64,000 nt of DNA from Henricia sp. BOLD:AAB3569. Its lineage: Eukaryota; Echinodermata; Asteroidea; Spinulosida; Echinasteridae. The notes below the pieces were generated by a model. The model did not search any database, was not told the origin of the DNA, and saw only the letters and a list, made by a program, of their open reading frames with translations. Positions 5,770 to 59,735 of this stretch are shown piece after piece. The stretch lies in NCBI GenBank assembly GCA_037783545.1, contig JBBELK010000060.1, positions 2,976,001-3,040,000 of the forward strand, written 5' to 3'. Both the position numbers and the translations under genes were made by a program. Positions within the stretch are counted from its first letter, which is position 1, and each line of letters starts with the position of its first letter.

Positions 5770-6121
5770 GGGTGTGTCGGGACAGTGGGTTCAAGATTCC
5801 GACGCACCACACGACACAGATGGTGTGTCGTAGGGTTTCCAACACTTTTGAACCTGTTTAAAAAAAATCGTACGGCGCACCCGAGTGTCGGAATGTGTTG
5901 TCATGGGCGTCCACGACACAAATCGTGATATTGGTCAGCATTTACGAAACGAATTGCAGCACACCCGGGTGTGTCGTTATGACGTCAGTGCCGTACTGTT
6001 GGCGCGCTTTTTGTCGCACACGACACGCTTGCAACACACGACCAAAATGATCCACGACACGCGCCGACACAGACTGTGTCGGCGTGTCGTGGGCGTGTCG
6101 GGCTTGGTGGGTTCAGCCCCT
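5770..6121. repeat. Word-rich element: GTGTCG / CGACAC
   Basis: About a dozen copies of GTGTCG or its complement CGACAC, often as GTGTGTCG or ACGACAC, are scattered in both orientations over 350 bp. No reading frame explains them. Similar ggttca words occur near each end. One of several elements here with the same style but a different word. Confidence 0.6.
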
Positions 6122-6178
6122 AAAGGGATAAATATTTATGGGCTGGGCGATTTTGGGTGATAAAAAGTGATTCCGAAA

Positions 6179-6635
6179 TAAACTCCTCAAAACAAGTTCG
6201 GAAAGTCAAGTTTGACTGATGATTTCTTTCTTGTTGCAAAATAATTTTCCTTGAATTTTATATCATTATTCCTCTTTACGATGATGTGTTATTTGTTATG
6301 ATTAAGCAATTGGGGGATGTGCAGCACAGCTCAATACGGCGGCGGGTGTAAAGTGAAATGTCACAAAATGCATTGCTATTGTCAAAAAGTGCATTGACAC
6401 ATTCCCATCCTCCAAGCAAAAGGGGAATGCACTGCATGACAATAGCAGTGAATTTTGTGACATTTTACTTTCCACCCACCCCTGTATTCCGCTATACTGC
6501 ACATCCCCCAATTGATTAATGACACATCACTGTTAAGAGGAATAACAGGGCTTTCTGATGATACCAAATTCAAGGGAAATGATTTAGTAACAAGAGAGAA
6601 ATCGTCAGTCAAACTTAACTTTTTTTAGGAGTTTA
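6179..6635. repeat. Foldback element, arms of about 200 bp
   Basis: The left arm from AAACTCCT and CAAGTTTGACTGATGA pairs with the right arm ending CGTCAGTCAAACTT and AGGAGTTT. Pairing continues with mismatches toward the centre near 6407. The element lies just 3' of the CAP exon in that gene's sense. Confidence 0.8.
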
Positions 6636-6764
6636 GAAAACTTTCAAAAGATTGCCAAAGTGTAAGCTTAAGATTAACAATTTAGCTACAGCGCTTGCAA
6701 TTTAGGGGTAAAAAGTCTAAGTGATGAAATGCCCTGTTTTAAAATGAATTGAAATAAATCTTAC

Positions 6765-6920
6765 CAGCTTCACCATATTATAGAGGCTTCTGCATGGGGA
6801 CAACCTCCTACGGGCATTGTTGTGGAGCTGAACCAGCTCCTGCCTTTGCTTCCCGTTCAGGTCGGCATTGGTTAGGCCCGCAAAACACAAGGCAAAGAGA
6901 CAAATACTTATTCGATTCAT
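6765..6920 (-). CDS. CAP/CRISP-family first exon (signal peptide plus start of CAP domain)
   Basis: 52 codons from the ATG at 6920 to a donor (AAGCTG|gtaaga), phase 0. Residues 1-19 look like a cleaved signal peptide (MNRISICLFALCFAGLTNA). Then comes the first helix of a CAP (SCP/TAPS, Pfam CAP-type) domain, with the family hallmark LHNNARRRLSP and NMVKL where relatives have LHN-x-R-x-x-V-x-P and NM-x-x-M. CAP proteins are secreted Cys-rich proteins of varied function. No later exon (W-D-x-x-L, HYTQxVW) was found between here and 3940 on this strand, and the next gene starts at 3938. It may be an orphan or duplicated exon, a pseudogene, or a gene with exons I cannot see. Confidence 0.6.
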
Positions 6921-6924
6921 GCTG

Positions 6925-8800: not shown

Positions 8801-8806
8801 TTCTCC

Positions 8807-8990
8807 TAGACTTGGTTCCAAGTCCGAGATCCTGTTTTGTTTTCCGTTTCCGGTTTTTGAAATGTATGGACAGGGAACTAGTCTATTTCGGTTCAGGATC
8901 CTGAACCGAAATAGACTAGTTCCCTGTCCATACATTTCAAAAATCGGAAACGGAAAACAAAACAGGATCTCGGACTTGGAACCAAGTCTA
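8807..8990. mobile_element. 184-bp near-perfect palindrome with 9-bp target duplication
   Basis: The two 92-bp arms are inverted copies with one mismatch; the axis lies in aggatcct between 8898 and 8899. It is flanked on both sides by CCGTTCTCC (8798-8806 and 8991-8999), a 9-bp direct repeat that reads as a target-site duplication. Nine-base duplications are typical of Mutator-like elements. No coding sequence. Confidence 0.85.
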
Positions 8991-9768: not shown

Positions 9769-9789
9769 CAGGGGCGGATCCAGGGGGGT

Positions 9790-9823
<34 letters not shown>

Positions 9824-10028
9824 GGTTGCGCACGCCCAACCCCCCTTTTCCAAAAATAAATAAATAATAAATGGTTAAATATTGCCTAAGATCGCACCAC
9901 AGAGCATCAAGAATCCATCTAGAAGCCGTTAGGGCTTCGCGCTACGCGCTCGCTATTTCATTGTCATCAGCATTTCCTGCTTAAAAATTTCACGCGCTCC
10001 CCTTTTCAAAATCCTGGATCCGCCCCTG
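9769..10028. mobile_element. MITE with CAGGGGCGGATCC ends and 33-G tract
   Basis: Left end CAGGGGCGGATCCAGG, right end CCTGGATCCGCCCCTG, flanked by GTCCG on both sides (9764-9768, 10029-10033). It holds an uninterrupted run of 33 G at 9790-9822. No open frame of interest. Confidence 0.8.
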
Positions 10029-17000: not shown

Positions 17001-18729
17001 TTATGCGGAGGGTTGTTTTTATGCGTGAGGGACAGATAATCAATAAAATTGACAAAAGAGGCAATTTTTGTACATGCATTTTCAACTATTTCTTGAAAAT
17101 GTGATGGCACAGTGTGCCCAGTCAAATTTATTCTGTTAATTTTTGTAATATGATTGTAAAATATGTACATTTCTTTACAGATCGAGGTATTATTTTGATT
17201 TATTTAAGAAATTTTTAAATCTTCATCCAGTTCTGGATCACGCTTATCAGTACACATTGATATGCATTACGCATGGCACAAACTTAAAATGACTAGAAAT
17301 CAATGCATTGTTAAATTCTTATATTACAGGTTCATCAGGCAGTGGTGCGCTGCAGTGCAGAACAAACAGTCTGACAATTATGAGGATGATCTTTGCACAA
17401 GCAGGAATGAAAGGTCTCTTTGCTGGTAAGATAAACAAATTTCATTGTGGAACCTGGGAAAAATGAAACATTAAATTAAAAAAAAAAAATTCAGTGGGAA
17501 ATTGCTTTCTCTTCTCAACATAAATTTGAAGAAAAAAATTCACATATGCTGATGATGATACAAGCTAGATTTGATTTATGTAAAGCAACAGGAAGCAACT
17601 CACGGCAACTGGGAACAACTGATCAGTTGCTTAAAAAGGTTGATGTACTCGCACTTGCAACTACTGGCAACTGAACAAATTCCAGTTGCCGCGAGCTGCT
17701 CATGTTCTACTCTCTGTCAACTAGTTGTATCCAGTTACGGTCAGTTTCGTCGATGTATGCGTACTTGCAACTTGTTGGTGTCAGTTGAACGAGTGCATCT
17801 GATCATGTGAGGTGCACATCGACAGCAACTGATGATCAGTCGAGTTGCTTCCAGTTGCTGGGCTTAAATGATTTCAGTTGGCCATTCAGTACCATCTGCT
17901 TGATGACCGAGATGTTAAAGAAGAATTATACCCAAGAAAGAAGACATTGTACTAAACAAGTGCAACATTTACATTGTTTTTATACAATGAACTTCAAATA
18001 CAGCCCACTGAAAAGTGGATACAAGCTTTACCAAGAATGGTAATTGCAGTGCTGTCTTGTAGTGTATGCACCACCATTTTGTCAGAAAACTGAGCAAAGA
18101 ATGGTATTTTTGCGTACAACTTTTTAGTGAATTGCCACAAGAATGTATGAAGTTGCAGCACCTCTTTAACAAAATATAATAAAATGGCAACAGTTTTTTT
18201 TTACAATACAATGTCTGTTGAGCCTACTGAAAATAAATAAACTCGGGGATGTTTAAAGGAGCATGTCCAGATCACATTTTTGACCCACCCACTTTTAAGA
18301 TTTTCATACCATATCAATTGTCATATTTTTCTCATTACCATTCTGAGATTTCACATTCTCAATCTGTGTATTTTCAAGGATATCGTCAAAAAACACCGAT
18401 GTTTTGTAAACTAATTTATCTGGTTCCATACAGCAGTGCAGTAATTACACCAACCTTTTTGCTTCCACATCCAAATTGGAAATTGCAAAATTCCTGTTTT
18501 CTTCCCATGGATAGTATTTTGAGGAGGTACTTTATATTATTGATATGGTTAAAACGAAATCCATTTTTCTGAACATGCTCCTCAAATACATGTACGCCCT
18601 TTTTTTGCATCCACAACAGGAACTGTGCCACGCATCTGCAAAGGTGCGCCCTCCAGTGCTATACTCATCACAACCTACGAGTTCTGCATCTCGCTGTTCA
18701 GAAAGCACAACTTGGAAAAGGGTTACTGA
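11063..18729 (+). CDS. SLC25A39/40-like mitochondrial carrier, copy 1 (10 exons, 461 aa)
   Basis: Exons: 11063-11462, 12084-12146, 12680-12828, 13770-13837, 14168-14301, 15001-15174, 15613-15722, 16476-16557, 17330-17425, 18620-18729. All introns are GT-AG and the frame closes exactly (1386 nt). Mitochondrial carrier family: three repeats with signatures TPLDVVKVR (residues 135-143), SPIEMIRTK and TPCDVVKTQ, and the C-terminal STYE-type motif as TTYEF. The SLC25A39/40 type is shown by a first matrix loop encoded in its own exon before the FNGTMDAF block. Vertebrate members import glutathione across the inner mitochondrial membrane. Oddities: an N-terminal extension of roughly 75 residues relative to copy 2 (Pro-5 run, Ser/Pro-rich), and a matrix loop with only three Cys (174, 179, 198) plus HSHSH. 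The start is the first ATG after an in-frame stop. Confidence 0.9.
12981..13313. repeat. Word-rich element: GACTCG / CGAGTC
   Basis: GACTCGGACTCG and relatives occur more than fifteen times, mostly as gactcg with some complementary cgagtc, in two clusters (12981-13064, 13226-13313). In intron 3 of the first carrier. The same word fills a second copy at 18998-19545. Confidence 0.7.
14360..14604. repeat. MITE with CCAGGGGCCAATTTCATG ends
   Basis: Left end CCAGGGGCCAATTTCATG pairs with right end CATGAAATTGGTCCCAGG. In intron 5 of the first carrier. Same end type as 47559-48032. Confidence 0.75.
15224..15300 (+). repeat. Fragment of the AATGCATAGTTCCGA MITE family
   Basis: Matches the left 75 bp of the copies at 38610 and 63536 (aatgcatagt, tgtcaatcaa, aaccaatcacaacagagct). 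Truncated. Confidence 0.75.
15325..15414. repeat. 90-bp palindrome in intron 6
   Basis: Near-perfect inverted repeat centred on ttaataa at about 15369 (caaaccattgtta / taacaatggtttg). Follows the MITE fragment directly. Confidence 0.8.
15466..15583 (+). repeat. Truncated copy of the AGCCGGCCGTACAC MITE
   Basis: Starts taaAGCCGGCCGTACACCTTG like the full copy at 16160 and shares gattgcg, gcatgct and gcgttgcg words, but lacks the right terminal repeat. It lies 30 bp before the exon 7 acceptor. Confidence 0.7.
16160..16347. mobile_element. MITE with AGCCGGCCGTACAC ends and TAA duplication
   Basis: Left AGCCGGCCGTACACCTTG, right AAGTGTACGGCCGGCT, flanked by TAA on each side (16157-16159, 16348-16350). 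A 3-bp TAA/TTA duplication is usual for PIF/Harbinger elements. In intron 7 of the first carrier. Confidence 0.75.
17573..17885. repeat. Word-rich element: GCAACT / AGTTGC
   Basis: About ten copies of GCAACTG or CAGTTGC in both orientations over 310 bp, in intron 9 of the first carrier. Another member of the word-rich class. Confidence 0.65.
18252..18586 (+). repeat. MITE family M2, copy 1 (AAAGGAGCATGTCCAGA ends)
   Basis: Left AAAGGAGCATGTCCAGA pairs with right TCTGAACATGCTCCT. The interior is shared with 19069-19412 (same strand) and 59947-60276 (opposite strand). Its right end lies 34 bp before the last exon of the first carrier. Confidence 0.8.
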
Positions 18730-18997: not shown

Positions 18998-19545
18998 ACA
19001 CACGTAGTTGAGTCACTTGGGTCGAGTCTGAGTCACGAGTCATTTGGGTCGAGTTCAAGTTTTTCAAAATCACATTCCAGATCACCCCATTTTTCCCATG
19101 GGTGTTGAGATTTTGATACCACATAATTTGTCATATTTTTCTCATTACCATACTGAATTTTCGCGTTCTCAATCTGTATATTTTCAAGAATATCGTCAAA
19201 AAAACCACTGATGTTTTATAAGCTAATTTATCTGGTTCCATATAAAGCAGTGCAGTAATTAAACCAACCTTTTTGCTTCCACATCCAAAGTGGATATTGC
19301 AAATTTCCTATTTCCTTCCCATGGATAGTATTTTGGGGAGTTATTTTATATGATTCTTGGGATAAAACGAAATTCAATTTCTGGAAAAATCTGAACCGCT
19401 CCGATCCTTTAAATGTATGCAAGTCACAAGTCCCTATTCCGAGTCTGAGTCATGACTCGAGTCAAGTCCGAGTCACTGAAATTGTGACTCGAGACGAATT
19501 CGAGTCAGAATCGTAGACTTGAGTCCTACAATACTGATATTTCGT
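18998..19545. repeat. Word-rich GACTCG element split by a MITE
   Basis: GAGTC / GACTC words in both flanks (18998-19065, 19425-19545) surround an M2 MITE, so the MITE inserted into an older GACTCG element. Just 3' of the first carrier, possibly in its 3' UTR. Confidence 0.65.
19069..19412 (+). repeat. MITE family M2, copy 2
   Basis: Colinear with 18252-18586 over its whole length (gataccacat, ttgcttccacatccaaa, ccatggatagtatttt); the left end is eroded and the right end keeps CCTTTAAA. Confidence 0.8.
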
Positions 19546-19564
19546 GCTTGCATTGTTAACTTAA

Positions 19565-30000: not shown

Positions 30001-33000
30001 AATATACAATGTGTCTTACTTTTAGAAGGCTAAAAGTGTTGTTTTTGACGTTTATATTGGGACTTTATAATTTTTTAGTAACACTTTTGGCCCCTTAACA
30101 TTTTAACCCCTTCGCCGTGTGGAACATTCTTACACGCCCTCAAGAGTCCAAATACCCTTGTGAAAATTCTTACCGTAAATTCCAAATCAGACATTCAAAA
30201 GCACACCATGGAGGTCCTTGTAATCTCAAGACTTCTGTACCCTTGTCGTTCTTTTTCCATGATGACTCAAACATCAAAAAAGGATAACAGGGAGCAAAAT
30301 TTGGAGTAAAATCGAATATTTTCAGCCAGCGTGGTACCACAGACTTCATGCTCCAGCCGCGTCAAAAGGAAAGTAGTTTCGCCAACGCGGATGAATTTGT
30401 TTACACTATGTTAAGTCTAAACTGGTCCCCTGTCTATGTGCGCTACGCTGCTCTCGCTCATATACGACGCGTGGGGAAGTAAATATGATTTTACTCCAAA
30501 TTTTGCTCCCTGTTATCCTTTTTTGATGTTTGAGTCATCATGGAAAAAGAACGACAAGGGTACAGAAGTCTTGAGATTACAAGGACCTTCATGGTGTGCT
30601 TTTGAATGTCTGATTTGGAATTTACGGTAAGAATTTTCACAAGGGTATTTGGACTCTTGAGGGCGTGTAAGAATGTTCCACACGGCGAATGGGATTAAAA
30701 TGTTAAGGGGCTAAAAGTGTTACTAGAAAATGATAACGTCCCAATATAAACGTCAAAAACAACACTTTTAGCCTTCTAAAAGTACTATGTGTCTAGTCTG
30801 TGTACAAAGGAATACCAATGCGCATTGGTTACCAGACGTGATCTAAAAATAACTTATTTTTAGATCACGTCTGGTAACCAATGCGCATTGCTATTCCTTT
30901 GTACACAGACTAGACACATAGTATATTTTTGAACACAAGACAACAACGTGAGCATACCGGTTTGTTTCGCTGGAATTGTTGGCTAAATATTCATCGTGGC
31001 TGGTTATTTCCCTCAAGGACCTGCGTAGTGGTTATGCCTGACAAGGTTTGGGTGAGTCCCAGGGGGAATTAGTGTGTCACGGTGAGAGAATGACACATTT
31101 GTTTTGTCCTGTTTTGTGATAGCGTGTTCATGTTCTTAAACCTTCTCAGCTCTACTGGTGAAAAGACCACATGCCAATGAAAAATGATAAAGCAAGAGCT
31201 GAGATTATCTTAGCTAGGCAGCATGTAGTATAAAGACTATCATGACTATGATAATCGGACAACTGATCATGGAGCATGACATAAAAAAACGGGTGTGGTT
31301 GAAACCCGGAGGTTGCCGGAGGTCGGAGGTAACCCGGAGGTAGAATTTTTTGTGACCGTGTGTACATGCTACAACCTACCTCCGGCTTGTTATTTTAATA
31401 CCACGTACATGTAGCTCCGGAGCCACCGTCAACGCACCAACTACACGTTAGCAAAAACAAAAACCTTTGGGTACCTCCGAACACCTCCGACCTCCAGGTT
31501 TTATAAATTTCCTAAAAAAACTAATAATGCACCTAGGCTATCATGCACCAGAGCATTGTTTATTTTGGTGCTTTGGCACTCGCACAAAATATTTGGATTT
31601 TAAAAATCCGAATATTTGGATTTTAAGAACTTAAGTTTCTCCCAACCTGCAAACACTATCAACTATAAACTAACATCAACATTACAAGATAGGGCGGTCA
31701 CACTAATCACTGTCTGGAATGTCATGATTCGTCAGGATTCATCAGAAAGCAGCCATGAAGTGTTAAAAAGCGCCAGGAAGCAGTCGGGAACACCAGAAAA
31801 ATTCCTTAAACTTTAATCTATTTTAATTATTTTTTTATTATGTATATTTAGTGTTAAAATTAAATTTGAAAAATTTAACCTAAATTTTGATTTTTAAAAT
31901 TAAAAAAAAATTAAACACATGTACAAATTTATCTTTAGTTGTTAAAAATTATACTTAAAATTTATTGCAAAAAATAAATTTAAATTTTTTGGAATTTTCA
32001 CTTTTAATTTTATTTACAAATTTAATTTAAAGATTAATTAAAGATTGAATAACAAACATGGTTTTAATAAACCAAGCCCTTATTTAAAAAAAAAAACATT
32101 TTAATTGGGTTTAGGGAATTTTCCTGACAGTTTCCGATTGCTTCCTGACGGTTCCCAACTGCTTTCCGACTGTTCGTGATGGTTCCTAACTGCTTTCCGA
32201 CTTTTTCTGACGGTTCCTGATGATTAGTATGACCCTACAGAGGGTGCCCTATGCCCCTAGTGATTTTAGGCTTTGAGACCAGTGAAAGTGGTGACCAGGG
32301 TCCTTTTTCATAAAAGTGGATTTAGGAACAATAAAATCGAATTGTTCCTATCTTTAAAAACATGAGTTAAGAATGTTTATTTAGGAATGTTTCTAAGTGG
32401 GCTTTATGAAATAGGACCCAGGAATCAATTTCCCAAAGACGCGTGACACGTCGCAAGTACCCGAATCCATCGCAACTCACTGAACCCGTGGCGAGTTGTG
32501 ATGGATTTGGGTATGTGAAATAGACCCCTTGTGTAATAATGATAACAGTACGTTGACTGAGCATCCAGTTTGTTATATAATTTAAAGGCAGAGGCTCGTT
32601 AGCAATGCACGCGCACCAAATTCGTGCCACGAAATGCGCAGCTTCATGCCTTTGCTATGGAACTGCGTATTACGTGGCACGAATTTGGCGCATGCGCATT
32701 GCTGACGATCCTCTGCCTTTAAAGGTCATTATTATTTATACAAGAATATCTGGCATCTGTTTATCCATTACAGTGACTCCTTTGGATGTTGTCAAGATCC
32801 GGCTGCAGATTCAAATTAAGCCCATGGCTAGTGGTGAGTTACATATAATAACCTTGAGTTGTGTACATGTATGTTTTAGCATGGGGTGTATAATTTTTTG
32901 CAGGAGGCATATGACATTTTTACCACCTTGTGTGCGCTCTTGGTGAAATCATCTGTCATGTTTGCGAATTGAAGGCATTCTATACAGCTTACCAGCAAAC

Positions 33001-36000: not shown

Positions 36001-39000
36001 GGTGAAACACGATTGGCAATATACCTTATGTTCACATAAGTGGAGAATTCTAATGGTATGTGCGTAGAACTAAAGGCCTGTCCGCATTGGACTTCTTTAA
36101 GGAAAACTTACCGAGACGATTTTAAGTCCAATGCGGAAAGCCTACATGTAGGACGTTTTCCCCTCAGTAACTTTTCCCCGAGTCCAGCGGTTACTTTTCC
36201 TGGCCAACTGCTGCCCAGGAAAATTGACCAGGAAACCTTTAGACGATAAGTCCAATGCGGACACGTTGAGTCGGTAAAAGTGCTCTGAAAGTGTACATCC
36301 GGGCCGTGAAGGTCAAACTGCGAAGAGACAGTGCACATGCTCTCCCACGGTCTCAGTGTAAAAGTCCAAGTGCGGACAGCAGTAAAATTTAGCCATTCTT
36401 TATTTTACCATCGTCTCGGTAAAACCTCCCAAAACATCACATTTGTAATGTATCCGGAGCCAAGCACTGCAACAATGCATGTACACATACACCGTGTCTC
36501 AGTGAGTTTTTTTTGTGAGTGATTTAAAAAAAATGTTAATATTCTTTTTAGATGACCTGTTATTTGTGTGTTCATTGCTTTCTAGATTAATGGCAGTGCC
36601 AGCCACAGTTCTGTACTACACATGCTATGACCAGCTGAAGGAGTGGATGGGATTCCAGTATGGAAAGTCCAGCATGCTTGTACCTGTGGCTTGTGGTGGC
36701 ACAGCCAGAGGTATGTATCCCTGCTTCCATCCCTGGCGCCACGTACCCCCTTGGCACCCCTCCCACCTACGGTTCTCCACTGGTTGTCATATTGTCTGAG
36801 TGCACTGAGCAGCTCTCTCATGCAGCGATCAGTGTCCAACCCAATGTTTGCCACGTGAGGATGCTGTTTAAAACGGATGCATGTGTGTGCATCTGTGTTG
36901 CACCGCGCCGTGTGTTGCACCGCGCCGGGCCACTTGAAATGCCAATGGGCCAGTGAAGACTTAAAGGACGTGTGAAATAGGGTTTTTATTAAATATAATA
37001 ATAGTAGAGGGTGTGTTTTACACATTTCGGTCAATTTCAGAAAATTTGATTGTTCTGTTTTGGTGTAATTGCAAGTTTTTTAATTTTTATGCTAATGAAA
37101 TTTCCATATTCATGAGCAAATCCGTGATGTCATCTCAGGACAACAGAGGAAATCTCCATTGACTCGTGTACAAACGTTTTTGTCATTTTTGACTTCTTGG
37201 TGTTATGATCTTGGTGTAACAGTTTACTGTGTTTGTTTAGTATGTCATTTCCAACAAGTTTGTTTGGGTCAGAAATAGATCAGTGGGCTACTGCTACTGT
37301 TTGAAATGTAATGTTCTTTCTTTGTTTTTCAACTGTGGGTTCCCTCCATGACAAGCAATACACAGCGCCCTCGTCTGTCAATTTTGAAGTAGAGAAAAGG
37401 TCACTTCTTTCCGAAATGAAAACAAATTTGAGTTTGCCCCTTTGTCTGCAACACTTTGATCTTCTAATTCGTGTATAAAACAAATGGTTGATAATTTTCA
37501 CTTCACTAAACCTTTAAGCTAACTGGCCCAGTTGGCCAGTTGGGGAAAAAGTTAAGAACAAACACTGATATCACATTTTCTGGAGTGGGTCACATACCTT
37601 GAAGCAGGTTATAGTTAACATTTACTGATAATTCTCAAGATGCCAAAACTAAAAATCACCTGAATATCATTGCCCTTTCGGCACCAGTTTTTGCAGTATC
37701 CGTCATCTCGCCTCTGGAGTTGGTGCGGACCAAGATGCAGTCACGACCTCTGACCTATAACCAGATAGTTGATTGCATCAGAACGGCGGTGAAAGATGAA
37801 GGCTTGTTGTCCCTATGGAGAGGTCTGGGACCGACACTGCTAAGGGATGTTCCATTCTCAAGTAAGGGGCAACTATGTGTCTGTTATTTGTTATCATTTG
37901 ATGTGATGTTTTCAGTATTAGTGCTTGGCAGTGATTTGTACAGACAATTGGTAAAGTCTCAAGTTACAAAAGCAGACTCAAGTCCATGCACACACTAATC
38001 TGTTTTCATTTACCGCTTCTGAGTCACTCCGTGTCAAATCACCGAATGGGTTAAATCTGACCATTTCAGATTTTGTAATGCATTGTATCAATCCTCCGTT
38101 GGTATGCAATATTTGAATGTGTATTGCTGGTGAACAAAGAATATTTGACCTCCTGAAACTTTTGAGCGTTCTAATTACAAATTACGAATGAAGGGATGTC
38201 TTCGTTGAATGAAGCTATTTGCTTCATCGAATGAGGCAATTCTAATCATCGTCGAATGAAGAGGCGTGCCTTCACATTAGGAAAACTCTTAGTCGAATCA
38301 TTGTTGAACCATCGTTAAACGAAGCGAATTCTCTAGTGAGAACGGGGTCCTAGTCAAGACACTTAATGTCAATTGCCTCGTCAACCTAAGCGATATTTGG
38401 GGAGCCGTTAGGGGGAATGCCACAATCTAACTGCTGAAAGGGTTGTGCGCCTTGGCCATACTGCCACCTAGTTGAAGCGAAATGGTTCTGGTGATTTCCT
38501 GATGGCAGCAGTAATAATGGGGCCATGATCTATATTAAATGGCGCTATATAAATACAAACCTGCTAACTGCTATTCAGAAAAGGTCACATGATCGAAAAG
38601 GTCAATTTCATTGCATAGTTCCGACCTGTCAATCAAGCCGAACCCGCCGACCAATCACAACAGAGCTAGCAGACGGCGCCCACATAGGTCAAAGTGATGC
38701 AATCATCACACAATCACGCAATTTTCTGCCCATACAGTTTGTATGTTGTATGCGCCAGTGACCGGGTGAATTTTTGTTTCAATGTCAGGCGATTCGCTGT
38801 TCAAAGGTAGGAAAGCGCATTTTTATGAATATATGTCATCCCTGCATTACTAGCCCTTCGCTCAGTGTGTGCTACGGTAACTGTCGACCCTAAAACATAA
38901 ATACCTTTGAGTTTTCTCCAATGAATCTGTGCTTTCCATGCCGAGTCCCATTGCTTTCTACGTTGTGGCGCCATTGTTTTGCGATGGCTTGTGAGCACAT

Positions 39001-43336: not shown

Positions 43337-43628
43337 CAATGGGAGTTTGGTTTTTGAACCTTCATATTGGGCTTGCTATCAACAAGGTAGAGTGCTGGGC
43401 AGGTGTTTTGTTTATACACTGAAACTATTGGGTTAGGAACCTACATGAGTGGTGTAGGTAAATTATTTGAACAATAATTTGCTGGCAAAAGGCTCGAAAT
43501 TGTAAAAGCAGCTGGTTTTTCCCCCTTTTTTAAAGCAGTTTTAGGGGTTAAGACATTTCGAACAAGCACTTTCATATCACTGCTAAATGTAGTAATTAAT
43601 CATGTTTTGAGTCCTTTATATACCGTAC

Positions 43629-43849
43629 AGGGCTCGAAATACCCACTGGACCGAGGCCAGTAATTTAAGCCTTGGTCTAGTGCTTTCTCTACCGTACTAG
43701 GCCTGTGGTCCAGTGCATTTTTAAACTAACAGTAAATCTACGTTCCTTGTAGCTTTGGTCTTGTAAAAATAGCGTTGGTCAAGTAAATGATTTAAGCTAC
43801 TAACCATGTGGTCTAGCAGATTTTTTAAAATGAAATTCGAGCCCTGCCG
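43629..43849. repeat. MITE with CAGGGCTCGAA ends, word-rich
   Basis: Left CAGGGCTCGAAAT, right ATTCGAGCCCTG. Inside, tggtctagtg-type words (ttggtctagtg, gtggtccagtg, ttggtcaagta, gtggtctagca) recur about six times. Ends are hAT-like. 3' of the second carrier, perhaps in its 3' UTR. Confidence 0.7.
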
Positions 43850-44742: not shown

Positions 44743-44781
44743 CAACTTTGTCACAATGAAATCAATTAACTTTCTTTTTTC

Positions 44782-45840: not shown

Positions 45841-48800
45841 TCAGCTGTTTCCACCAAAGATTTCTTCAGTAGATGGTGGTCTTTGAGGAATAATACTGGA
45901 CCATGTGAATCCCTTCTCTTCTTTCATGGGAGCGACGGGAAGAGGCGCGGTTCTGGATTTGTAGTATTCACTGGGGGCGTGGCAGACGAATTCCAAGTAT
46001 TCAAGTGAGCGAGGAAGCTCCTCCTCAGGACCTGAAGAATAGATAAAGTCAGGGTTATTGACTAGCAAGGTAGCTGTTGAAAAGACAGCAACAGTGTTTC
46101 TGTACCAAAGTTTACACCATCACTCAAATAAAGAGCAGTCAATGTATATTTATTATATACCTCATACATTGATTTTCGATCTAATGATTGGTATTTCAGA
46201 TTAGGTTTTGCTGACAAAAAAAATACACTCACTGTACAAAATGCCGTACCCACATACACTTATAGATGATCTGTTTTTGAGCGATTCTGGGAACAAAACC
46301 ATTATAAATCAAAAGAAGGACATCAAAAACCCTATCTGAAGACTTTTCAGCTCCGTCAAATGCACTACGTTTTAAAAAAACATGAAAAATCCATGCGCTC
46401 TTGACGAGGTGTTTCAACACGACTTATTATAAATTTGTCCGTTCATTCTCAGTCGGTCGCGTACGTGTACTTGTATTCACTCTGTGGCTTGCGTTATACT
46501 GGTTGTGTGCACGACCAGTCCAGTCCGCATGCACAGTGTAGCCTACCTACGGAAAGTGTGAGAAGCCTGAATCGTGCAGCCTATACACAGTGCCCGTTTC
46601 GGACCGCCCAGATGCGAGCCAACTAAGTAAATCGTTTGCAAACGATCTAAACAATTTCATCTTCATGGATTATTTTCTGGTAAAATTCTATCCTCTCGGG
46701 CGGAAACATGTTATTGGATAGTTGCTACCAATTCAATCTTTACTTTGAGGAAGGTTTTCCTAGTCAACTCGTTGATTGACATGTTGGGTCGTTGCAAATG
46801 ATACAGTGGGCCTTTAAACATCGCTGGTAAGGGTTGCTTCATACAAACACACGTGAACACGATAAATGTACTGTTGTTTGACCTATGACATTAAAGGTCA
46901 AACAATAGCACATTTTTACTCCTGTGATTTTATTTCCTACTTCGGATCTACTTCTGTCTGTGATGGACTCGACTGCAGCACTGGTGTTTATACTCACACG
47001 GAGCTTAGAAGTTATCAAAGTATCGAGCCAAATGACCAGGGGTAATAAGTAGGACCACCATGATATCTGTGATGTGTGCTATTAAAAAACAGTCCAAATT
47101 TAACAAAGTCTTTTACACTCTCACCCAAAATGTATGTTGAGGGATCAAAGTGGTTCTTATCTGTTGCCTGTGTGGGTAGTAGCCACGTGATCACCGCACT
47201 CTTATTGCTGTACTGGTCCTGAAGGAATCCTCGTATCTGTGCATAGTAAATACCGCCCTCAACGTCTAGGATTGACACAATGTCTCCAACTTGCATGTAC
47301 ACTCCCTGAAAAGGATGAGAGGATACACGTGTCTTCAATAAAAAGCACATTCATTGAAAGCACAGTGCGCGCACGCCAAATTCGTGCCACGAAATACGCA
47401 GCTCCACGTATTTGCTATGGAGCTGCGTATTTCGTAGCACGAATTTGGCGCGCGCGCATTGCTGACGAGCCTGTGCCTTTAATGTGTGCATATTAACCAG
47501 TAAAAAAAAACAAATCCCATTTTTAAAAAATATAAATGTGATTAGCCAAAGGTTAAGACCAGGGGTCAATTTCATAAAACATGTTAGCACCCGATTTCTG
47601 ATTTATAAGCAGTGCTCTCTCCATTTCATAAAACTGTTTAAGCACTAGCAAACCAAACTGCATGCTAACCTACCGATTTTATGGTAACGCGACGACATCT
47701 TTTTTCTTCGCCATACTTAGCAAAATTCGAGACACATATTCCAACAGATACACAACTTTCAGCTGTTGTTGAAATATTCCAGTCAGCGAAAGGGAAGGGT
47801 CTTCTGTGGTAGTGATAATTATCCCAAAATGGAAATGTTATCGATGATGGTACTTGAAAATGTTGATGTGACTAAATGAAAGCAGACGATGAATGTGTTC
47901 GAACAAAACTTTCAACGCGCGCTTAGAATAACGAGCTTTATGAAATAGGCCCTTGCTTGAGCAAATTTTCGTGCTATTCTTAGTACAACATTTTTGACTA
48001 AGCGTAACAGGTTTTATGAAATTGGCCCCAGGTCAAGCACCACAAACACAAATACTCTTGAGAGTCATTTCTACATTTACTGTATGAATCTTCTTACCAA
48101 ATGATCATACTTTGCAACACTCCGAGCCAAACACCCCCGTGACTATACACTGCTAGAACATGTATGTGTACATTACGTACGCACTGTGGACGTTTCTTTG
48201 TATTCGTGCACTTAAGAGAATTGGTCAGAAAAAGTTGTTTTCTCCAAATTCTTCCCTCATCCACCCCAATTTTTTTCTAATCCATGTTTCTAAACTTTTC
48301 TCCTGAACCCTAACCTTTTTTTTTTAACTCTCCACCCCCACCCTAACCCCTTTTCCCAAGTTTGGTCAACCTGACTGTGGACTTGAGCGAACGAGTGCAA
48401 GTCCACAATCCGTCACTTTTTCCCGCAAATTGTGGACTTGAATGGGTTTCGAGTCCACAGTGCGACCACAATGCCCACACATACAGCTTTACATACAGTT
48501 AAAGGGTAACTGGGTCCAAACATTTAACCGGTAATCTGAAACGTCCACTGCTAAAGCACATGTTAACAGTTCATTGGTTTTAGTGTAGACCCAGTAACCT
48601 TGGCAACACACAGAGGATGACATTTATCATTTAGTACTAGAGATTACAAGAAGCTTTGATAAGAGGCCGTCTTATGTTTTTAGGGGTCCCTTGATCGAAA
48701 AATTCAGGGTTGCTTTCGAGCGTAGATTTTGGGAATCCCAGGTGCTATAATCTTCCGACTCCTACATGCAAAAAGGTGCTGTGGAATCTCTTGCTCCTAC

Positions 48801-51800
48801 ATATAAAACTAAATTTCTTGACTGTAACATAACGCATGTTAAGAAACTTTCTACCAATTGGTCCTGGCATAAAATATTCAGTTAGTTTATCATCAAACTG
48901 ATAATATAAAACACACTTACATGACGAAACACACTGTTACTGGTCACAACAGTTGATACTGATTCTGGGGCCTTCATGGGCTGTCGATGAGAAAAGATAT
49001 TCTTAATGTAAGCTATTCTTAGTTTTTAGCAAGTTATACCCCCGTCACACCGGAGGCGCGGTGCCACTGCGGTGCTTGTACGGCATAAACCGCAGTGGCA
49101 CCGCCATGATCGCCGTGGTTCCGCCGTGGTTCCGCCATTGATCGCCGTAGCACCGCGGAAAACTGTCAAAACCGCGGACCTTCGCGGTGGCACGGCGGAA
49201 ACTTTGAACATGTTCAAAACTTCCGCAGTGCCACCACGGGTTGGGCCAATCCGCAGTGGGATCGCCGCGGCACCGCCATGACCGCCGTGGGACCGTACAA
49301 GGACCGCAGTAGCACCTCCATCACCGCCGTGCCTCCGCAGTACAACCGCCATGCAATCGCCGAAAAAGTAGACTGGCAACCCTACGGCATTCCCGTGGCG
49401 GTTCTACTGCGGTTATGGCGGTGCTACCACGGGAGCACTGCGGGTATGGGGGTGCCACTGCGGAGCCAGGGAGGAATTTTACAAAATTTGGCAATCTTAC
49501 TGCGGTGCCACTAGTACTGCGTTCCTACGGCGGTGCCGGCGAGGTGCTTGTACGGCAATGGCGTTTCCAATGAGGTTGCACTGAGGTGCTTGCACGGTGC
49601 TACTGAGGGCATATTTTGTAAGTATAAAAGCTTCGGTTTTCTGCTTCAATTTCAGTGTTCTAAAAGTCTTCAAACAGTTCAGATCGACAGTAGCACCGCG
49701 AAGAAAAACACATGTGTGACGGGTATGGGAAAACTATGAAAAACTCCTAGCGGTGTCACTACGTTGATGGCGGTTTTGACCAAAAACCGTAGTGGCACTG
49801 CCAATCCGGTCTGACGGGGGTATTAAGTAGGAAAACTAGGGGTCACAGGAATAAAAAGAGTTGGTAAATGTGACTTTCTTGTAAAATATGAGTTTTGCAG
49901 AATATCCTGCAACTCTGAAATAACCTTATTGCGCATATGCTTCCTTGTCCATCGACTGGTTCCCAGACTGTACTTTCCTTTATAAAACAATCTGTGGTAG
50001 CCACAAAGTCTATTGGAAGCTATTCCAACAGTCATGTTGATTATTTATGTACAATTATTAGTAGAAATATTGGTGTGATTTATAAAATCAGAGATTTTGT
50101 TCCATCACATATGGGTCTTTCCACGCTAATGGGCCTATTTGAAAAATAAGTCAATAATTGCTTTCAGATGTCTTCAGTTTAAATTCCCTTGTACTGTTCC
50201 CAGGAGATAACTTTTGCCCAAAAAGGTAAGAAAATTCTGCCTCAACATACATTTCTGAAAAGCTTGTGTACACATTTTCCATATACGTATGTAACGGTGG
50301 ACAGACAAAATTGTGACATTTTTGTCTGTCCACGTACATGTACATGTATACGTAAATGGAAAATTTGTACAAAAGTTATCTCCCGAGAACAGTACAAGGG
50401 AGTTTCTTTAAGTTTGAGATAAACTGAATTATTGACTTATTTTTCAAATAGGCCCATTAGCGTGGAAAGACCCGTATCCTATTTTCCTTATATATAATAC
50501 TTTAGTGGTGTCATACGTCATATATAAATTATAGAATACTTGCTTGGGGTAATTCTGCATCAAGTAACATTAAAAGCAGCAGTGAGAAAAGTTCTACTTT
50601 TTCTTTGAAAACACTTTTTTGTGTCACCTGGCTAATGTTTGTGGTATTTTTTTCCATTAAAAACAGAAGTTACTTTAATTGCAACTTTACAGGTTAGGCC
50701 AATGAATTTAGATTACTAGTTTCTCGTCAGTGCCCGTATGTGATTTTGACCCCGCACAAGCTAAGGTTACCTCAGCTCTAGCTTTATCAATATCATGTTG
50801 TTATTCGGATGTGGTTTTTCGGATGTAGAGCTGAGGTTACTTATCAACATGAACACGATATCACAAAACAAATGTGTCATTTTCTCCCCATGACACACTA
50901 ATTCCCCCTGGGACTCACCCAAACCTTGTCAGGCATAACCACTACGCAGGTCCTTCAGGGAAATAACAAGCCATGATGAAGATTCAGCCTACAATTGCAG
51001 TAAAAAAAGGAGGTCTGGAATGACAGCCAAATTCAAGTCTTGTCTACGATGTGTCTATCTGTGTACAATGGAATGGCAATGTGCGGTCGATTACCAGACT
51101 ACCAGTGCGCAGACTGAATTTGTGATATCGAGTTCATGTTGATAAGTAACCTCAGCTCAACATCCGAAAAACCACATCCGAATAACAACATGATAAAGCT
51201 AAAGCTAGAGCTGAGGTAACCTTAGCTAACCCCGCACCAACAAATTTCATTATGCCAAAATTTTATTATTTTGCCAAAAGGGGGAAAAATCACCTGCAAA
51301 CTACTCCCAAATGAAAAGTTTCCATTTGAGTTGTGCAGTCGCGCTCTGTGTTTTGCAGCTTTTGTGTTTATATTCAAACATATTGCTCTTTCATAACCAG
51401 ACATCTCCTTTGTCATTTCCCATGATTTTGTCATCTCAACTTGTTCCTTCAAACACAAGCTACCCGGTTTAACTCAATGGAATTGACACTGGCACCAAAC
51501 TATTTCTAGATGACTTTAGAGCTTTAATAATCAGTTTCTAAATGGCAGTTCGTGTATGTGTAAACTTAAGATAGTATTTTTCCTTGATTGAATAATGAAT
51601 AATGAAAAACATCCCTCACCAAAATTTGATAAATGGTTGACGAGAAACTAGTTATCTAATTTCATTGGCCTTAGTGATTTGAAAGAAACTAACCCCTCAG
51701 GGAATAGGGTCCTAAAGTTAAACTATGTAAAACATCTGTCAACATGCAACACAGCTGAAAATTTAGCACAGCCTAGCAATTCAATTACATTTCTTTTAAA

Positions 51801-52744: not shown

Positions 52745-54300
52745 AAGGGACACTCTTAAGACGGCTGTGAATGTTTTGAATTAGAGGGGGGTATCCGGTC
52801 GATAATTAAAAGAAAAGCGCCCTCTCTGGACACCGAAGTACTTTGAATAAAAACGTCACTGTTTCCTGTCTTTATTTACCTTTTTTAAAACATCCCTCTC
52901 GTGCCGCCATTTTTCTTGGCAAGAGGGTCTCTGGAGACGCGGAGACGCGGAGACGGGAGACGGCTGTGAATGTTTTGAATTGGAGGGGGGTATCCCGTCG
53001 GTAATTAAAAGAAAAGCGCCCTCTCTGGACACCGAAGTACTTTGAATAAAAACGTCACTGTTTCCTGTCTTTATTTACCTTTTTTAAAACATCCCTCTCG
53101 TGCCGCCATTTTTCTTGGCAAGAGGGTCTCTGGAGAGGCGGAGACGCGGAGACGGGAGACGGCTGTGAATGTTTTGAATTCGAGGGGGGTATCCCGTCGG
53201 TAATTAAAAGAAAAGCGCCCTCTCTGGACACCAAAATACTTTGAATAAAAACGTCACTGTTTCCGGTCTTTATTTACCTTTTTTTAAACATCCCTCTCGT
53301 GCCGCCATTTTTCTTGGCAAGAGGGTCTCTGGAGAGGCGGAGACGCGGAGACGGGAGACGGCTGTGAATGTTTTGAATTCGAGGGGGTATCCGGTCGGTA
53401 ATTAAAAGAAAAGCGCCCTCTCTGGACACCGAAGTACTTTGAATAAAAACGTCACTGTTTCCTGTCTTTATTTACCTTTTTTAAAACATCCCTCTCGTGC
53501 CGCCATTTTTCTTGGCAAGAGGGTCTCTGGAGAGGCGGAGACGCGGAGACGGGAGACGGCTGTGAATGTTTTGAATTCGAGGGAGGTATCCCGTCGGTAA
53601 TTAAAAGAAAAGCGCCCTCTCTGGACACCAAAATACTTTGAATAAAAACGTCACTGTTTCCGGTCTTTATTTACCTTTTTTTTAAACATCCCTCTCGTGC
53701 CGCCATTTTTCTTGGCAAGAGGGTCTCTGGAGAGGCGGAGACGCGGAGACGGGAGACGGCTGTGAATGTTTTGAATTCGAGGGGGGTATCCGGTCGGTAA
53801 TTAAAAGAAAAGCGCCCTCTCTGGACACCGAAGTACTTTGAATAAAAACCGTACTGTTTCCGGTCTTTATTTACCTTTTTTAAAACATCCCTCTCGTGCC
53901 GCCATTTTTCTTGGCAAGAGGGTCTCTGGAGAGGCGGAGACGGGAGACGGCTGTGAATGTTTTGAATTCGAGGGGGGTATCCGGTCGGTAATTAAAAGAA
54001 AAGCGCCCTCTCTGGACACCGAAGTACTTTGAATAAAAACGTCACTGTTTCCGGTCTTTATTTACCTTTTTTAAAACATCCCTCTCGTGCCGCCATTTTT
54101 CTTGGCAAGAGGGTCTCTGGAGAGGCGGAGACGCGGAGACGGGAGACGGCTGTGAATGTTTTGAATTCGAGGGGGGTATCCACTGTGGGGGTATCCCGTC
54201 GGTAATTAAAAGAAAAGTGCCCTCTCTGGACACCGAAGTACTTTGAATAAAAACGTCACTGTTTCCGGTCTTTATTTACCTTTTTTTAAACATCCCTCTT
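52745..54300 (+). repeat. Tandem satellite, unit about 199 bp, 8 copies
   Basis: ggctgtgaatg recurs at 52763, 52962, 53161, 53360, 53558, 53758, 53949 and 54148 (spacings 191-200, mostly 199), with a degenerate ninth at 54585. Each unit carries gagacgcggagacggga, ggtaattaaaagaaaagcgc, ccctctctggacaccgaagt and a small hairpin gccgccatttttcttggc. Units are nearly identical, so the array is young or homogenised. Confidence 0.95.
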
Positions 54301-54311
54301 GTGCCGCCATT

Positions 54312-54350
54312 GGGGGGGGGGGGGTATTTGGGGGGGGGGGGGGGGGGGGG
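54312..54350 (+). repeat. Two G tracts (13 and 21 G)
   Basis: G13 at 54312-54324 and G21 at 54330-54350 separated by tattt, at the end of the satellite. Likely G-quadruplex forming and prone to assembly error. Confidence 0.9.
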
Positions 54351-55073
54351 ATTAGTTCGTCGGTAATTAAAATAAAAGAAGTGCGCGACTCCGTCTCCGG
54401 CGACGGGATCGTTTCCGAGCGCGCCGCTTGAACAGTTCATTCCAAAGAGGGCGCAATATAGGCTTGAACAGTTCATTCTAAAGAGGGCGCAATATATGAA
54501 TGTGTAAGTGCGTGACGTGTGTGACTCGATTATTCTGGGCAAGAGGGTATCTGGTGACGCGGAGACGCGGAGACGGGAGACGTCTGTGAATGTTTTGATT
54601 TCATTCTAGAGAGGGCGCAATATATGAATGTGCGTCAGTGCGTGACGGTGACTCCGTCTCCGGAGACGTTGAGATTGAAGTATAGTGGGCCCTGTATTCT
54701 ATAGTTGTGCCGAGAGAAGTTATCAACATGAACCCGCCATCGCAAAAAAAAAAAAAAGTCAAATGTGTCATTTTCTCACCGTGACACACTAATTCCCCCT
54801 AAAACTCACCCAAACCTTGCCAGTCATAACCACTACGCAGGTCCTTGAGGGAAATAACCAGCCACGATGATTATTTTGCAAACAATTCTAGCGAAACAAA
54901 CCGGTATGCTCACAGCCTAACCGTTGTCATGTTGTGTTTAAAAAGTCTATCTGCCTAGTCTGTGTACAAAGGAATACCAATGCGCATTGGTTACCAGACT
55001 TGACCTTCACGTCTGGACGTGAAGGTCAAGTCTGGTAACCAATGCGCATTGGTATTCCTTTGTACACAGACTA

Positions 55074-55626
55074 TACCCCTAGAATTATGGGGGACAGTAT
55101 CCCCCATAGGTTATGTTGTTTTTTTCCAATATGGCGGCGCCTGAACTTTAAGATCGGACCGATACGGTTTAAGCTAGCGCAATAATCCGCTCCCCAATCG
55201 CCACCAAACTCCGTCTGATAGTTCTTGAGACACTCACCTTGCGTGTGTCTACGGAATTTCGGTACCATTTGTCCACTAAATTCTCCGAAAATAATGTTGG
55301 GAAATGAACGGGAACATGTGCGATGCATCCACATGCATTTTACCGAATGCCTCAATCATGCATGTGGATGCATCGCACATATGTTCCCGTTCATTTCCCA
55401 ACATTATTTTCGGAGAATTTAGTGGACAAATGGTACCGAAATTCCATAGACACACGCAAGGTGAGTGTCTCAAGAACTATCAGACGGAGTTTGGTGGCGA
55501 TTGGGGAGCGGATTACTGCGCTAGCTTAAACCATATCGGTCCGATCTTAAAGTTCAGGCGCCGCCATATTGGAAAAAAACAACATAACCTATGGGGGATA
55601 CTGTATCCCCCATAGTTCTAGGGGTA
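55074..55626. mobile_element. 553-bp palindromic element inside composite B
   Basis: Ends TACCCCTAGAATTATGGGGG and CCCCCATAGTTCTAGGGGTA. Arms of about 260 bp are nearly identical inverted copies around a short spacer at about 55335-55360. Perfect 9-bp duplication CACAGACTA (55065-55073, 55627-55635). Confidence 0.92.
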
Positions 55627-55950
55627 CACAGACTAGACACTTGGTTGTTTTTGAACAAGACAAAAACGGCTAGGCTGTGAGCATACCCGGTTTGTTTCGC
55701 TAGAATTGTTTGCAAAATAATCATCGTGGCTGGTTATTTCCCTCAAGGACCTGCGTAGTGGTTATGACTGGCAAGGTTTGGGTGAGTTTTAGGGGGAATT
55801 AGTGTGTCACGGTGAGAAAATGACACATTTGACTTCTCTCAGCTCTACTGCTAAAAGACCACATCCCAATGAAAAATGATAAAAAAAGAGCTGAGATTAT
55901 CTTAGCTAAATTGGCCCCAGCCCCGCGAGTGCAAGTGTGTGTTTAGGCCG

Positions 55951-56823: not shown

Positions 56824-57289
56824 TAATGGTATAATAAAATAAGTATAACAGGATATCTCAAAAAATACTTGTCCGATTTTCTTCACTTAAAGAGCATTGT
56901 ATTTCTTTCATCGAGACCTTTAATTTGATATATAGTTTGGGTGTTTGGGGCAAGGAATAAGTTTTTGCATGAAAACCCTACTTTAAGTTATTCGGCAAAA
57001 ATCCCCGCTGCCATTCTTAGTCCGTGTGTTTGAATCTACTTGGTCTTATCTCACGTTATGCACCTATCAATTGTTTAACATTAGTCCACACCGGTCAATA
57101 ATTTCATCAAAAGATAATGTACTTCAATGCTTTTTTGTGTCTTACAACGTGCCTTTCTCAATGCATTGTGCTCGGTGACCATGCGTTTTTAATGTACAAA
57201 TGTCCCTTGTCAAACGTTCGTTCAAGGATCTGACGCGCATGCGCAGAAATAACTATGAACTGACTTATTGCTTATTTGGCCGGGTTTTG

Positions 57290-57705
57290 CCACTTAAGAG
57301 AAATGTTTCAGTCTCTCGCCCTCGCTGAAATAGAAAAAGTTGATGTCTGGTGAGACCACAGTTTCAATCCTTTTTTTTCTGTAAAACTGGGCAAGGAAAA
57401 TTTTAAAATGAATTAGCTTTCTGAAGTTCAGTGTTTGCTCCGTCGAATGGTGTAGAATGTGTGCGTGTTGAATCTGATAGCAGCACGATGAAGAAATATG
57501 CAATGCCTTTTGTACCTCGTGTAAAATTAAACGAAGTGTGTGACGGGTGAACAAAGGACTTTGTACACAAGATTGATAAACTGTTACAAATAGTTGTGTG
57601 TGATTGAAGTGAAAATATGCATGATTAAAACCAACCTGAGCAAAAACCAGCTCCGTACTTCGTCTAACCTTTGAGAAAACAGTCAAAAAAGGGTTTGCAG
57701 TCATT
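57290..57705 (-). repeat. Dispersed repeat, copy 1
   Basis: Inverted relative of 62637-62800 (agacgaagtacggag, tttttgctca, ggttggttttaat, tcaatcacaca). Non-coding. Confidence 0.7.
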
Positions 57706-57910
57706 TCGCCCCAAAATCACTTCGCCCTGAACCATTTTACCCCTGAACCATGGCCTGTGCACGAAGTGGTTTTGGGGCGAAGTACCGGTACATGTAGCAT
57801 TTGGTCGATGTAGTGTTTGGACGAAGTGATTTGGGGCGAAATGGCACTTAGGCGAAGTGGTTTGGGGGCGAAATAGCACTTGGGCGAAATGGTTTTGGGG
57901 CGAATTGAAT
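57706..57910. repeat. Word-rich tract: GGGGCGAA / CGAAGTG
   Basis: ttcgcccc / ggggcgaa and cgaagtg words occur about twelve times in 200 bp in both orientations; the ends are inverted (tttcgcccc, ggggcgaat). Confidence 0.65.
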
Positions 57911-59350
57911 TTACGTATCGCGAGACGAAAAATAATTTCTCAAAAACTATAGCACTTCAGACAAAACCATTTTAGGGGAAGTTTTCTGCCGTCATTATGT
58001 TTATATCTGTGAACATTTCTGATTCTTCGAGATACCAATCATGTACATGTATACTGCCTTTAAACTTTTGAACTAATAGTCGGTGAACTTTGTGATGACG
58101 ACGAACTTTTTGATGAATGTGAACTCTGCCAATATCACCGTTTGTTTCCAAGGGTTGAGGTTGCACTGTCCTAGAATTATTATCAGATGAGTAAATAATA
58201 CAGTTTTACAATATGCAGTGATAAGGAGGAAACACATGACTTGCAAATGTTTACAAATGATTAAGAGATTATTTTGAAGTATGTACCTTACATGATTCGC
58301 GATCATGCGGAATAATTACATGTGTTCTTTGTGGTTAATAGTGCATGGATTGGCATGTTACATTGGAACCAGTTTACATACTGTAGCGATCTAGCATCCT
58401 TGACAATAATTTTTCGATGGTCGTTGAGAAAAAAAATATCAAAATGTCACGTAATTAACTAGAAATGTTTAAAATTAACAAAAGAGACAAATGTTGGGCT
58501 GTACGCTTTACCAGCCGTCGCGATGTATTATGTATCATGTTTTTGTAAATAAAGGTGGCGTTCGATATGGGTCGACACGTGTTTAACCTCGTTTCCTTGT
58601 TTTCCCTGACTCATCACACCTTGCATGATCCCTCAGGTCAGCGCTGACTGGAGGAAGCAACTCAAACGCAACCTTTTGGTGTCTTTAGCGCCCTCAATAG
58701 TTAGCTGTTTTTTCTTCGGATATTATTTACCGCCGCGAAGCGCAGACGCGAAAATCTGAGAGATTCTCTCGTCCGTAATAACACCCAGAAACCCTTCTTA
58801 TGAAATATGTTGGCAGATTTGTGACAAATTGGAAAATACGGTATGTACATAGTGTTCTTAGGACATTATTTTCCAACAAGAAGAGAAACCAACCACGAAT
58901 GACAAAAGCAACTTGCACTTCGCGCTGGTTTCTACGGCTGGAAATAAAACTACTGTAACTCCAAGACCACGTGATTTATCCGAACCAAAATCACGTGATC
59001 TTGATTTTTTGAACAAATGCTAAAAAAACTGCCAAATTTTGTGGTTTCATTTCAGGTCCTCTTTAGTCTATGTATGGGTCTATTTCGAGCCCAAAATAGC
59101 CCAACAAAGCCGGTGTGTCCCTTTAATAGACCCTTTGCACTGGAGGCCATTACAGGGGACAGGTGTTCATATTTATATGATCTGACAATAGGTCCACAAA
59201 GTGCTTACTAGTGCATGACGCACAGTGACAGTGTGACTGTTCATGTTATGACCGCCGGTGCAAAGTGTCTATAGATGGGTATTGATGTAAATCTCTAAGA
59301 AAGCTAGGTATTTTTCTTTCTTGTAGAACCTTTGTTTTATGAAACCCGTG
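57911..59350. other. Upstream region of AGMO, no exon supported
   Basis: Contains the repeat fragment at 58382-58530 (partner of 8394-8527). A non-coding first exon of AGMO may lie here or further left, because the first coding exon starts after a splice acceptor. Confidence 0.4.
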
Positions 59351-59354
59351 TCCA

Positions 59355-59735
59355 AGAAATCGCTTCATTCGACGAAGATTCGATGATGTTTTGACAATAG
59401 ATTTTCTGATGTGAATGCACGTCTCTTCATTCGACGAAAATAATAATCGCTTCGTTCAACGAAGCAAAGTACATGTAGCTTCATTCGATGAAGGGATCGT
59501 TTCTTTCGATGAAGAGATCGCTTCATTCGATAAAGTGAATTCGCAATGTGAACGCTTCCTTCATTCGACGAAGCGATTTACCACGTAATAAGATAGAGGC
59601 ATCGCGAGTTCTGATCTTCGTTAGTTCTTTAATGCAAATGGTACTGAGATTTAAACGCATGCTTCATTAACTAACGATGATTAACTGATCTTCGTCGAAT
59701 GAAGCGATTTCTCTGGTGAGAACAGGGTCCGAGTG
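59355..59735. repeat. Word-rich element: TTCATTCGACGAAG
   Basis: cttcattcgacgaag-type words recur about nine times in both orientations. The left end caagaaatcgcttcattcga pairs with the right end tcgaatgaagcgatttctct. Related to 38168-38348. Ends 25 bp before the AGMO exon acceptor. Confidence 0.7.

Follow-up and report, generated by a model that had tools for sequence, protein, structure and literature searches.

Why does a single stretch of starfish DNA hold 13 intervals that are each crowded with copies of one short word, with 11 different words among them? The stretch, hereafter the window, is 64 kb long and lies within the 740.7-Mb genome assembly of Henricia sp. BOLD:AAB3569 (contig JBBELK010000060.1, positions 2,976,001 to 3,040,000; G000:C60:2976001-3040000). 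A first-pass annotation took the intervals for mobile elements, several with inverted ends and each made as a whole of its own word, and proposed one class with one shared mechanism, such as internal templated copying or selection for transposase binding along the full length. Our results show that word-richness is a habit common to several kinds of transposons, not one class. We lean towards the view that the intervals are miniature inverted-repeat transposable elements (MITEs) of several superfamilies, and that each family's word is recognised by a DNA-binding protein of its own.

The abundance of words exceeds that in shuffled sequence in nearly all intervals. Words were counted on both strands, between interval ends chosen after reading the sequence, and compared with 200 order-1 resamplings per interval. 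Those of at least seven letters were counted with one to three mismatches allowed, scaled to word length, because they have few exact copies; GTCCGCATTGGAC and TTCCTGAC occur exactly twice each in the whole window. The count was higher than in every shuffle in 12 of the 13 intervals, the sole exception being the interval at 38168 (4 words versus a shuffle maximum of 5). Against some 200 places drawn at random from the rest of the window, 11 of the 13 exceeded the maximum. The intervals at 18998 and 38168 did not; at least part of the reason is that the sampled places include the second copy of each family. A word-blind scan, which took the commonest 6-mer per 400 bp and a threshold of at least six copies, marked 37 of 637 segments versus 5 of 1,911 shuffled ones. 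Its marks merge to nine regions: seven correspond to noted intervals, one is a tandem array at 52759-54311 (199-bp unit, 7.8 copies, 95% matches), and one lies beside this array. The word-rich intervals are thereby upheld, apart from the one at 38168, and seven of the 13 are recovered blind. That a whole element is made of its own word was overstated. In the 11 stretches measured, words make up about 9-30% of the sequence, and the intervals are word-rich elements rather than elements made of their word. At least six copies of one 6-mer within 400 bp were also found in 37 of 107 non-redundant flanks of fetched loci (154 kb), a non-random sample that includes members of the families already described as well as simple tandem repeats. 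Further words in these flanks include CGGTAG, GACCGC and GTGTTA.

Copies were collected by genome search for four of the 11 word families (CGAATGAAG, GCGGTGCCAC, GTGTCG and GGGGCGAA), with the best 40 candidates scored in each, and a second copy of a fifth, CGGAGGT, was met by chance in a fetched flank. The collection of all copies of each family, as initially proposed, was achieved in part. Each of the five multi-copy families proved to be a short transposon with defined ends. PIF/Harbinger-like ends and mostly TAA/TTA targets occur in three, 9-bp duplications in one, and one is of the TTAA type. The idea of mobile elements with inverted ends, target duplications and a word of their own was borne out in the families with copies. 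The outcome named as speaking against it, mere tandem arrays that have neither ends in common nor target duplications, did not occur in any of these five testable families.

The complete GCGGTGCCAC element of the window is located at 49037..49822 on the plus strand (the right boundary was corrected to 49822), between the ends TACCCCCGTCACACCGG and CCGGTCTGACGGGGGTA and the target duplication TTA. It contains 22 near-matches to its word, versus a shuffle maximum of 6, and inverted terminal repeats of 38 bp at 84%. The search gave 265 first-look candidates. The scored best 40, the window copy aside, have 91-95% identity, and 38 of the 40 cover nearly the whole query. Both ends are present in 27 of 30 loci (three were dropped), at a length of 776-811 bp, and 19 of these 27 copies have identical 3-bp flanks (TAA in 11, TTA in six, TGA and TTC in one each). 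The 17 flanks with TAA or TTA agree with the PIF/Harbinger target rule, which is TWA (PMC4482050). After collapsing duplicates, 17 of 25 insertions retained matching flanks, versus a permutation mean of 9.07 (p = 0.0001), and at shifted offsets the flanks matched in 0, 0 and 1 of 25.

The CGAATGAAG and GTGTCG families share with GCGGTGCCAC the inverted terminal repeats typical of PIF/Harbinger elements, and in all three the words start within or just inside the inverted ends. Two CGAATGAAG copies are found on the plus strand of the window. The first, at 38168..38349, consists of the right arm only and matches 59355-59508 and 59692-59737; the second, at 59343..59729, has a degraded left end and the right end GACCCTGTTCTCACCAGAGAAATCGC (minus strand). 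Among the best 40 of 2,559 first-look candidates, the family end is approximately GACCCCGTTCTCACTAGAGAAATCGCTTC. Both ends are intact in three of eight loci (L002, L003 and L007). Each of these is flanked by the same 3 bp on both sides (TAT, TAA and CTA, respectively), and one of the three triplets is TWA. The remaining loci show one end, and the flanks of the second window copy do not match. Matches often break at query positions 240-306, therefore the middle is variable between copies. At another locus (L004, ~1760-2020) a CGAATGAAG copy is seemingly interrupted, as read by eye, by a different word-rich element with AACTCG/GTTGAG words.

The GTGTCG copy at 5764..6120 lacks its left end, has the right end GGGGCTGAACCCACCAAGCCCGACACG (minus strand) and contains 12 exact words, versus a shuffle maximum of 3. 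From 114 first-look candidates the best 40 were scored and have, the window copy aside, 70-88% identity. TAA or TTA directly adjoins the GGGGCTGAACCCACCAAGCCCGACACG end in 19 of 25 distinct ends, and in 20 when one extra base is allowed.

The other two multi-copy families belong elsewhere. The CGGAGGT element at 31291..31512 is flanked by the 9-bp target duplication TAAAAAAAC, and the second copy (L025, 850-1077) by a 9-bp duplication of its own, ATTCTAGGA; both start with GGGTGT and end with AAATTTCC. A 9-bp duplication in two of two copies points to Mutator-like/Phantom elements, and a duplication of 8-9 bp would also suit Merlin (PMC4482050). As for GGGGCGAA, alignment with fetched copies (L069-L072) showed that the word block at 57700-57908 is the middle of a ~505-bp element, which in the window occupies 57555..58059 on the plus strand and has ends of approximately AGRTAGTATACATGATTGGTA. 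The best 40 of 2,557 first-look candidates each cover 228 or more of the 241 query bases. With right ends read by eye from the alignment, TTAA is present on both sides in three of the four fetched copies (L069, L071 and L072), only on the left in L070, and only on the right in the window copy. This TTAA-type element may be a piggyBac or a Kolobok. A relative at 62.3-62.7 kb departs from the alignment just after the first word.

Ends, target duplications and repeated genome copies are thus observed for some of the families, and they do not support one class with one mechanism. There are at least three types of target duplication (3 bp, mostly TAA/TTA; 9 bp; TTAA), and two further families, TGGTCTAGTG and GACTCG, presumably have hAT-like ends. 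The placement of the words differs by family as well: they run through the whole element, are confined to regions near its ends, or lie chiefly in the middle. The middle third is devoid of words in both GACTCG copies and in TTCCTGAC. Among open-licence papers, no title or abstract describing such a word-rich class was found. The element kinds are already known, their words are highly reiterated, and the superfamilies have apparently converged in this respect.

How did the word arrays come about? The GCGGTGCCAC consensus, 787 bp long, contains 23 words, and the 27 copies contain 18-24. At non-CpG sites, words diverge from the consensus by 1.5% and spacers by 1.4%; the corresponding values at CpG sites are 1.1% and 1.9%. 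Because the copies keep 18-24 words, and because words diverge about as fast as spacers, the array was already present in the founder and has been inherited as a fixed array. Orthologous words differ by 2.6% between copies, as compared with 26.7% for words inside one copy, a value bounded by the number of mismatches permitted in a word. With the about equal rates of words and spacers, continuing templated copying or homogenisation therefore finds no support in GCGGTGCCAC, the one family tested. The suggestion to look for variation in word number was fruitful: besides the range in GCGGTGCCAC, GTGTCG has 9-19 exact words among 15 copies of 387-1,233 bp (four are duplicates, some carry insertions), and the two CGGAGGT copies differ by one word lost and one gained.

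Such gains and losses would fit words without function. These could have come about in a founder when part of the inverted end was copied by slippage, by unequal exchange or on a hairpin template, and would then have been amplified together with the element. Local tandem structure in several blocks (periods 21, 31, 22, 20, 11, 32 and 27) is in agreement with this origin, and so is the fact that both elements examined for folding fold strongly (z -3.8 and -9.6). At minority word letters of GCGGTGCCAC, 7 of 16 substitutions led to the majority letter, which is a weak hint at most. We regard a neutral origin as possible but doubtful, as GCGGTGCCAC has no overall sign of continuing homogenisation, and as neutrality alone leaves the occurrence in several superfamilies unexplained. 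If the words were neutral debris, these would be ordinary MITE families of small interest.

The folding could also be the function itself, with single-strand hairpins or cruciforms promoting excision, fork stalling or transposition. The GTGTCG and GCGGTGCCAC elements, two of the 13 intervals and the only ones for which folding was computed, indeed fold better than all shuffles (none of 100 and none of 20 reached the same level). But such folding comes with any sequence that carries its words in both orientations. The strong folding follows from this arrangement and alone gives no support for a hairpin function, and 15 of the 17 words in the GACTCG interval at 12981 have the same orientation. 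A foldback function is accordingly very unlikely in our judgement.

Under the reading that we favour, in which words are reiterated recognition sites, each element would combine a short end of its superfamily type with arms or a block carrying many family-specific words, usually in both orientations. In PIF/Harbinger-like families the word would be bound by the Myb/SANT partner of the transposase, and in hAT-like families by the DNA-binding domain of the transposase itself. MITEs keep the arms of their parent element. Having retained these arms and lost the genes, they would take on a word-rich look. Many weak sites would gather protein on the element and aid the pairing of its two ends. We infer the binder of the word, and the reason for so many words, by analogy with better-known transposons. 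DNA binding in PIF/Harbinger elements is the task of a Myb-like partner, and that of the zebrafish Harbinger3_DR recognises a 9-bp subterminal motif (PMC9710019). The THAP domain of Galileo binds repeats within long ends, and its authors suggest that a protein whose recognition sequence is short gains specificity from multiple sites (PMC3688188). In maize Spm, many internal TnpA sites are thought to unite the ends (PMC9921582), a likeness by description only. Given this Myb-like motif and the reiterated sites of Galileo and Spm, the private word would most simply be a reiterated binding site as well.

Several observations weigh against this. Matching flanks are missing in 8 of the 27 GCGGTGCCAC copies, five of which have TAA on one side versus TTA on the other, and only three of the eight two-ended GTGTCG copies have identical 3-bp flanks. 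The GCGGTGCCAC words are no more conserved than the spacers at non-CpG sites, but copies that are immobile need not show word conservation. The GGGGCGAA words are mainly in the middle, away from the ends; not being subterminal, they count against a uniform story of end recognition. For mPing/mPong in yeast, one study found no common sequence-specific internal element with a promoting effect (PMC9921582). No transposase or Myb partner with these ends turned up, and no genome-wide PF13359 or Myb search was made.

The same bound protein might serve regulation. In this case the words would be operator sites, at which the transposase or its partner represses the parent promoter, and the MITE copies would titrate the repressor. 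A TATA-like GTAGTATAAAAGC in the right part of the GCGGTGCCAC consensus, downstream of most words, would fit. It is seen in one family only, and we hold this explanation to be unlikely. The right part of the consensus also includes an internal partial end, GTGTGACGGGTA.

A piggyBac-type gene at L013 was considered as the parent of a CGGTAG element and rejected. Two DDE_Tnp_1_7 pieces lie just right of the element and an N-terminal-looking start, recognised by eye, on its left, and the word element was read as inserted into the gene. At positions 1374-2855 of this locus, the CGGTAG element, beside the two pieces, has a GCGGTGCCAC element inside, so that these are apparently nested transposons.

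Compared with known systems, the elements look both familiar and different. They resemble PIF/Harbinger MITEs (Tourist-type, Harbinger3_DR) by their inverted ends, short copies and the 3-bp TAA/TTA duplication in most GCGGTGCCAC copies, and differ from them by the ~23 words along 787 bp in GCGGTGCCAC, the different word per family and the lack of any coding parent seen. Galileo, of the P superfamily in Drosophila, and Foldback are similar in having long, internally repetitive ends with repeated THAP-domain sites, but three sites are described there, the ends measure ~1.2 kb and the superfamily is another one (PMC3688188). Tm1 of root-knot nematodes, a Mutator-Foldback element resembling the Phantom subclass, has 9-bp target duplications like CGGAGGT, together with composite inverted ends of variable length and MITE-like members (PMC3169594). 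Unlike Tm1/Phantom, the CGGAGGT element is 222 bp long and shows no inverted repeat over the outermost 10 bp of its two ends.

Should the words be binding sites, one could read from raw sequence alone which DNA is recognised by many of a genome's transposon proteins, and could readily test how MITE families escape or make use of one another's machinery. For repeat annotation, such elements are easily mistaken for diverged tandem arrays.

The ends of the PIF-like families hint at some kinship. Eight such ends, three of them from beyond the noted intervals, were grouped by eye and their terminal 25-mers compared. Of the 28 pairs among them, 8 were similar at p <= 0.05, as compared with 2 of 40 when they were paired with ends of other types. 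The GTGTCG end resembled none of the other PIF-like ends at this level. This resemblance is suggestive only. A narrow pattern, derived from the same ends, occurs four times in the window versus 0.47 in shuffles. One could imagine a two-part address, in which a common terminal core (~CCCGTCACACYGGAG) would be read by related transposases and a private word array by the family's own Myb-type partner. Many MITE families could then coexist without cross-mobilising, and other superfamilies would have converged on the design. We offer this as speculation and consider it rather improbable. A possible short element with a PIF-like end, GACCCTTTGCACTGGAGG, is located at 59128-59275, and no word array was noticed in it.

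The remaining intervals are known from their window copies. Both GACTCG copies are damaged and only their right ends were seen. The copy at 12975..13321 matches the other one, has the right end CAGTGTTGTAG (minus strand) and 17 exact words versus a shuffle maximum of 3, and no matching end was seen on its left side. The copy at 18998..19536 has the right end CAGTATTGTAG (minus strand) and 8 exact words, also versus 3, and is split by another repeat (~19081-19396). Further copies of the latter (19105-19380) are found at 18295-18567 and 59958-60245. The TGGTCTAGTG element at 43628..43846 has inverted ends CAGGGCTCGAA, CCGTA (5 bp) on both sides and 6 near-matches versus a shuffle maximum of 2, and a diverged relative is present at 45633-45701. 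We believe that the ends CAGGGCTCGAA, CAGTGTTGTAG and CAGTATTGTAG are like those of hAT MITEs with subterminal repeats, hAT ends being of the CAG type; the CCGTA duplication was seen in one copy only. Target duplications of hAT elements are 5-8 bp long (PMC4482050).

The single GCAACT element at 17584..17864, with 10 exact words versus a shuffle maximum of 3, has inverted ends AGC..AACAGGAAGCAACTC and TAA on both sides, as read by eye. TAA was likewise read by eye on both sides of the one GTCCGCATTGGAC element at 36074..36382, which has the inverted ends AGGCCTGTCCGCATTGGAC and CTGCTGTCCGCACTTGGAC and 3 near-matches versus 1. The TTCCTGAC element, a single copy at 31690..32237 with ends TAGGGCGGTCACACTAATCA and TAGGGTCATACTAATCA, bears its words only near both ends (9 near-matches versus 2). 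The TGTGGACTTG block at 48370..48465 consists of two hairpins and has 4 near-matches versus 2; neither ends nor a duplication were recognised in this window copy.

The TTCCTGAC words are spaced near multiples of 10.5 bp, and pooled word spacings have a best period of ~10.3-10.4 bp for adjacent words and direct repeats. Inverted word pairs failed the period scan. Under a per-family placement null, only TTCCTGAC (0 of 1,000) and GCGGTGCCAC (p = 0.025) stand out among 11 sets, and helical phasing as a general property was dropped. In GGGGCGAA the word spacing has a period of 15-16 bp. A scan of viral_contigs with two end/word patterns of 18-19 bases gave no matches.

Some other features of the window were noted in passing. 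A 40-base run at 9783-9822 is almost entirely G, and a near-perfect palindrome without spacer occupies 8807-8990, with 92-nt arms at 99%. Large nested inverted repeats were found at 54756-55835 (arms of 149 nt at 100% and 232 nt at 97%) and at 29831-31090 (arms of 143 and 229 nt, 94-95%). Coding traces that suggest an animal include a reverse transcriptase and separate mitochondrial-carrier stretches, of which one passes the Pfam cut-off and one narrowly misses it, as does a GATA-type zinc finger.

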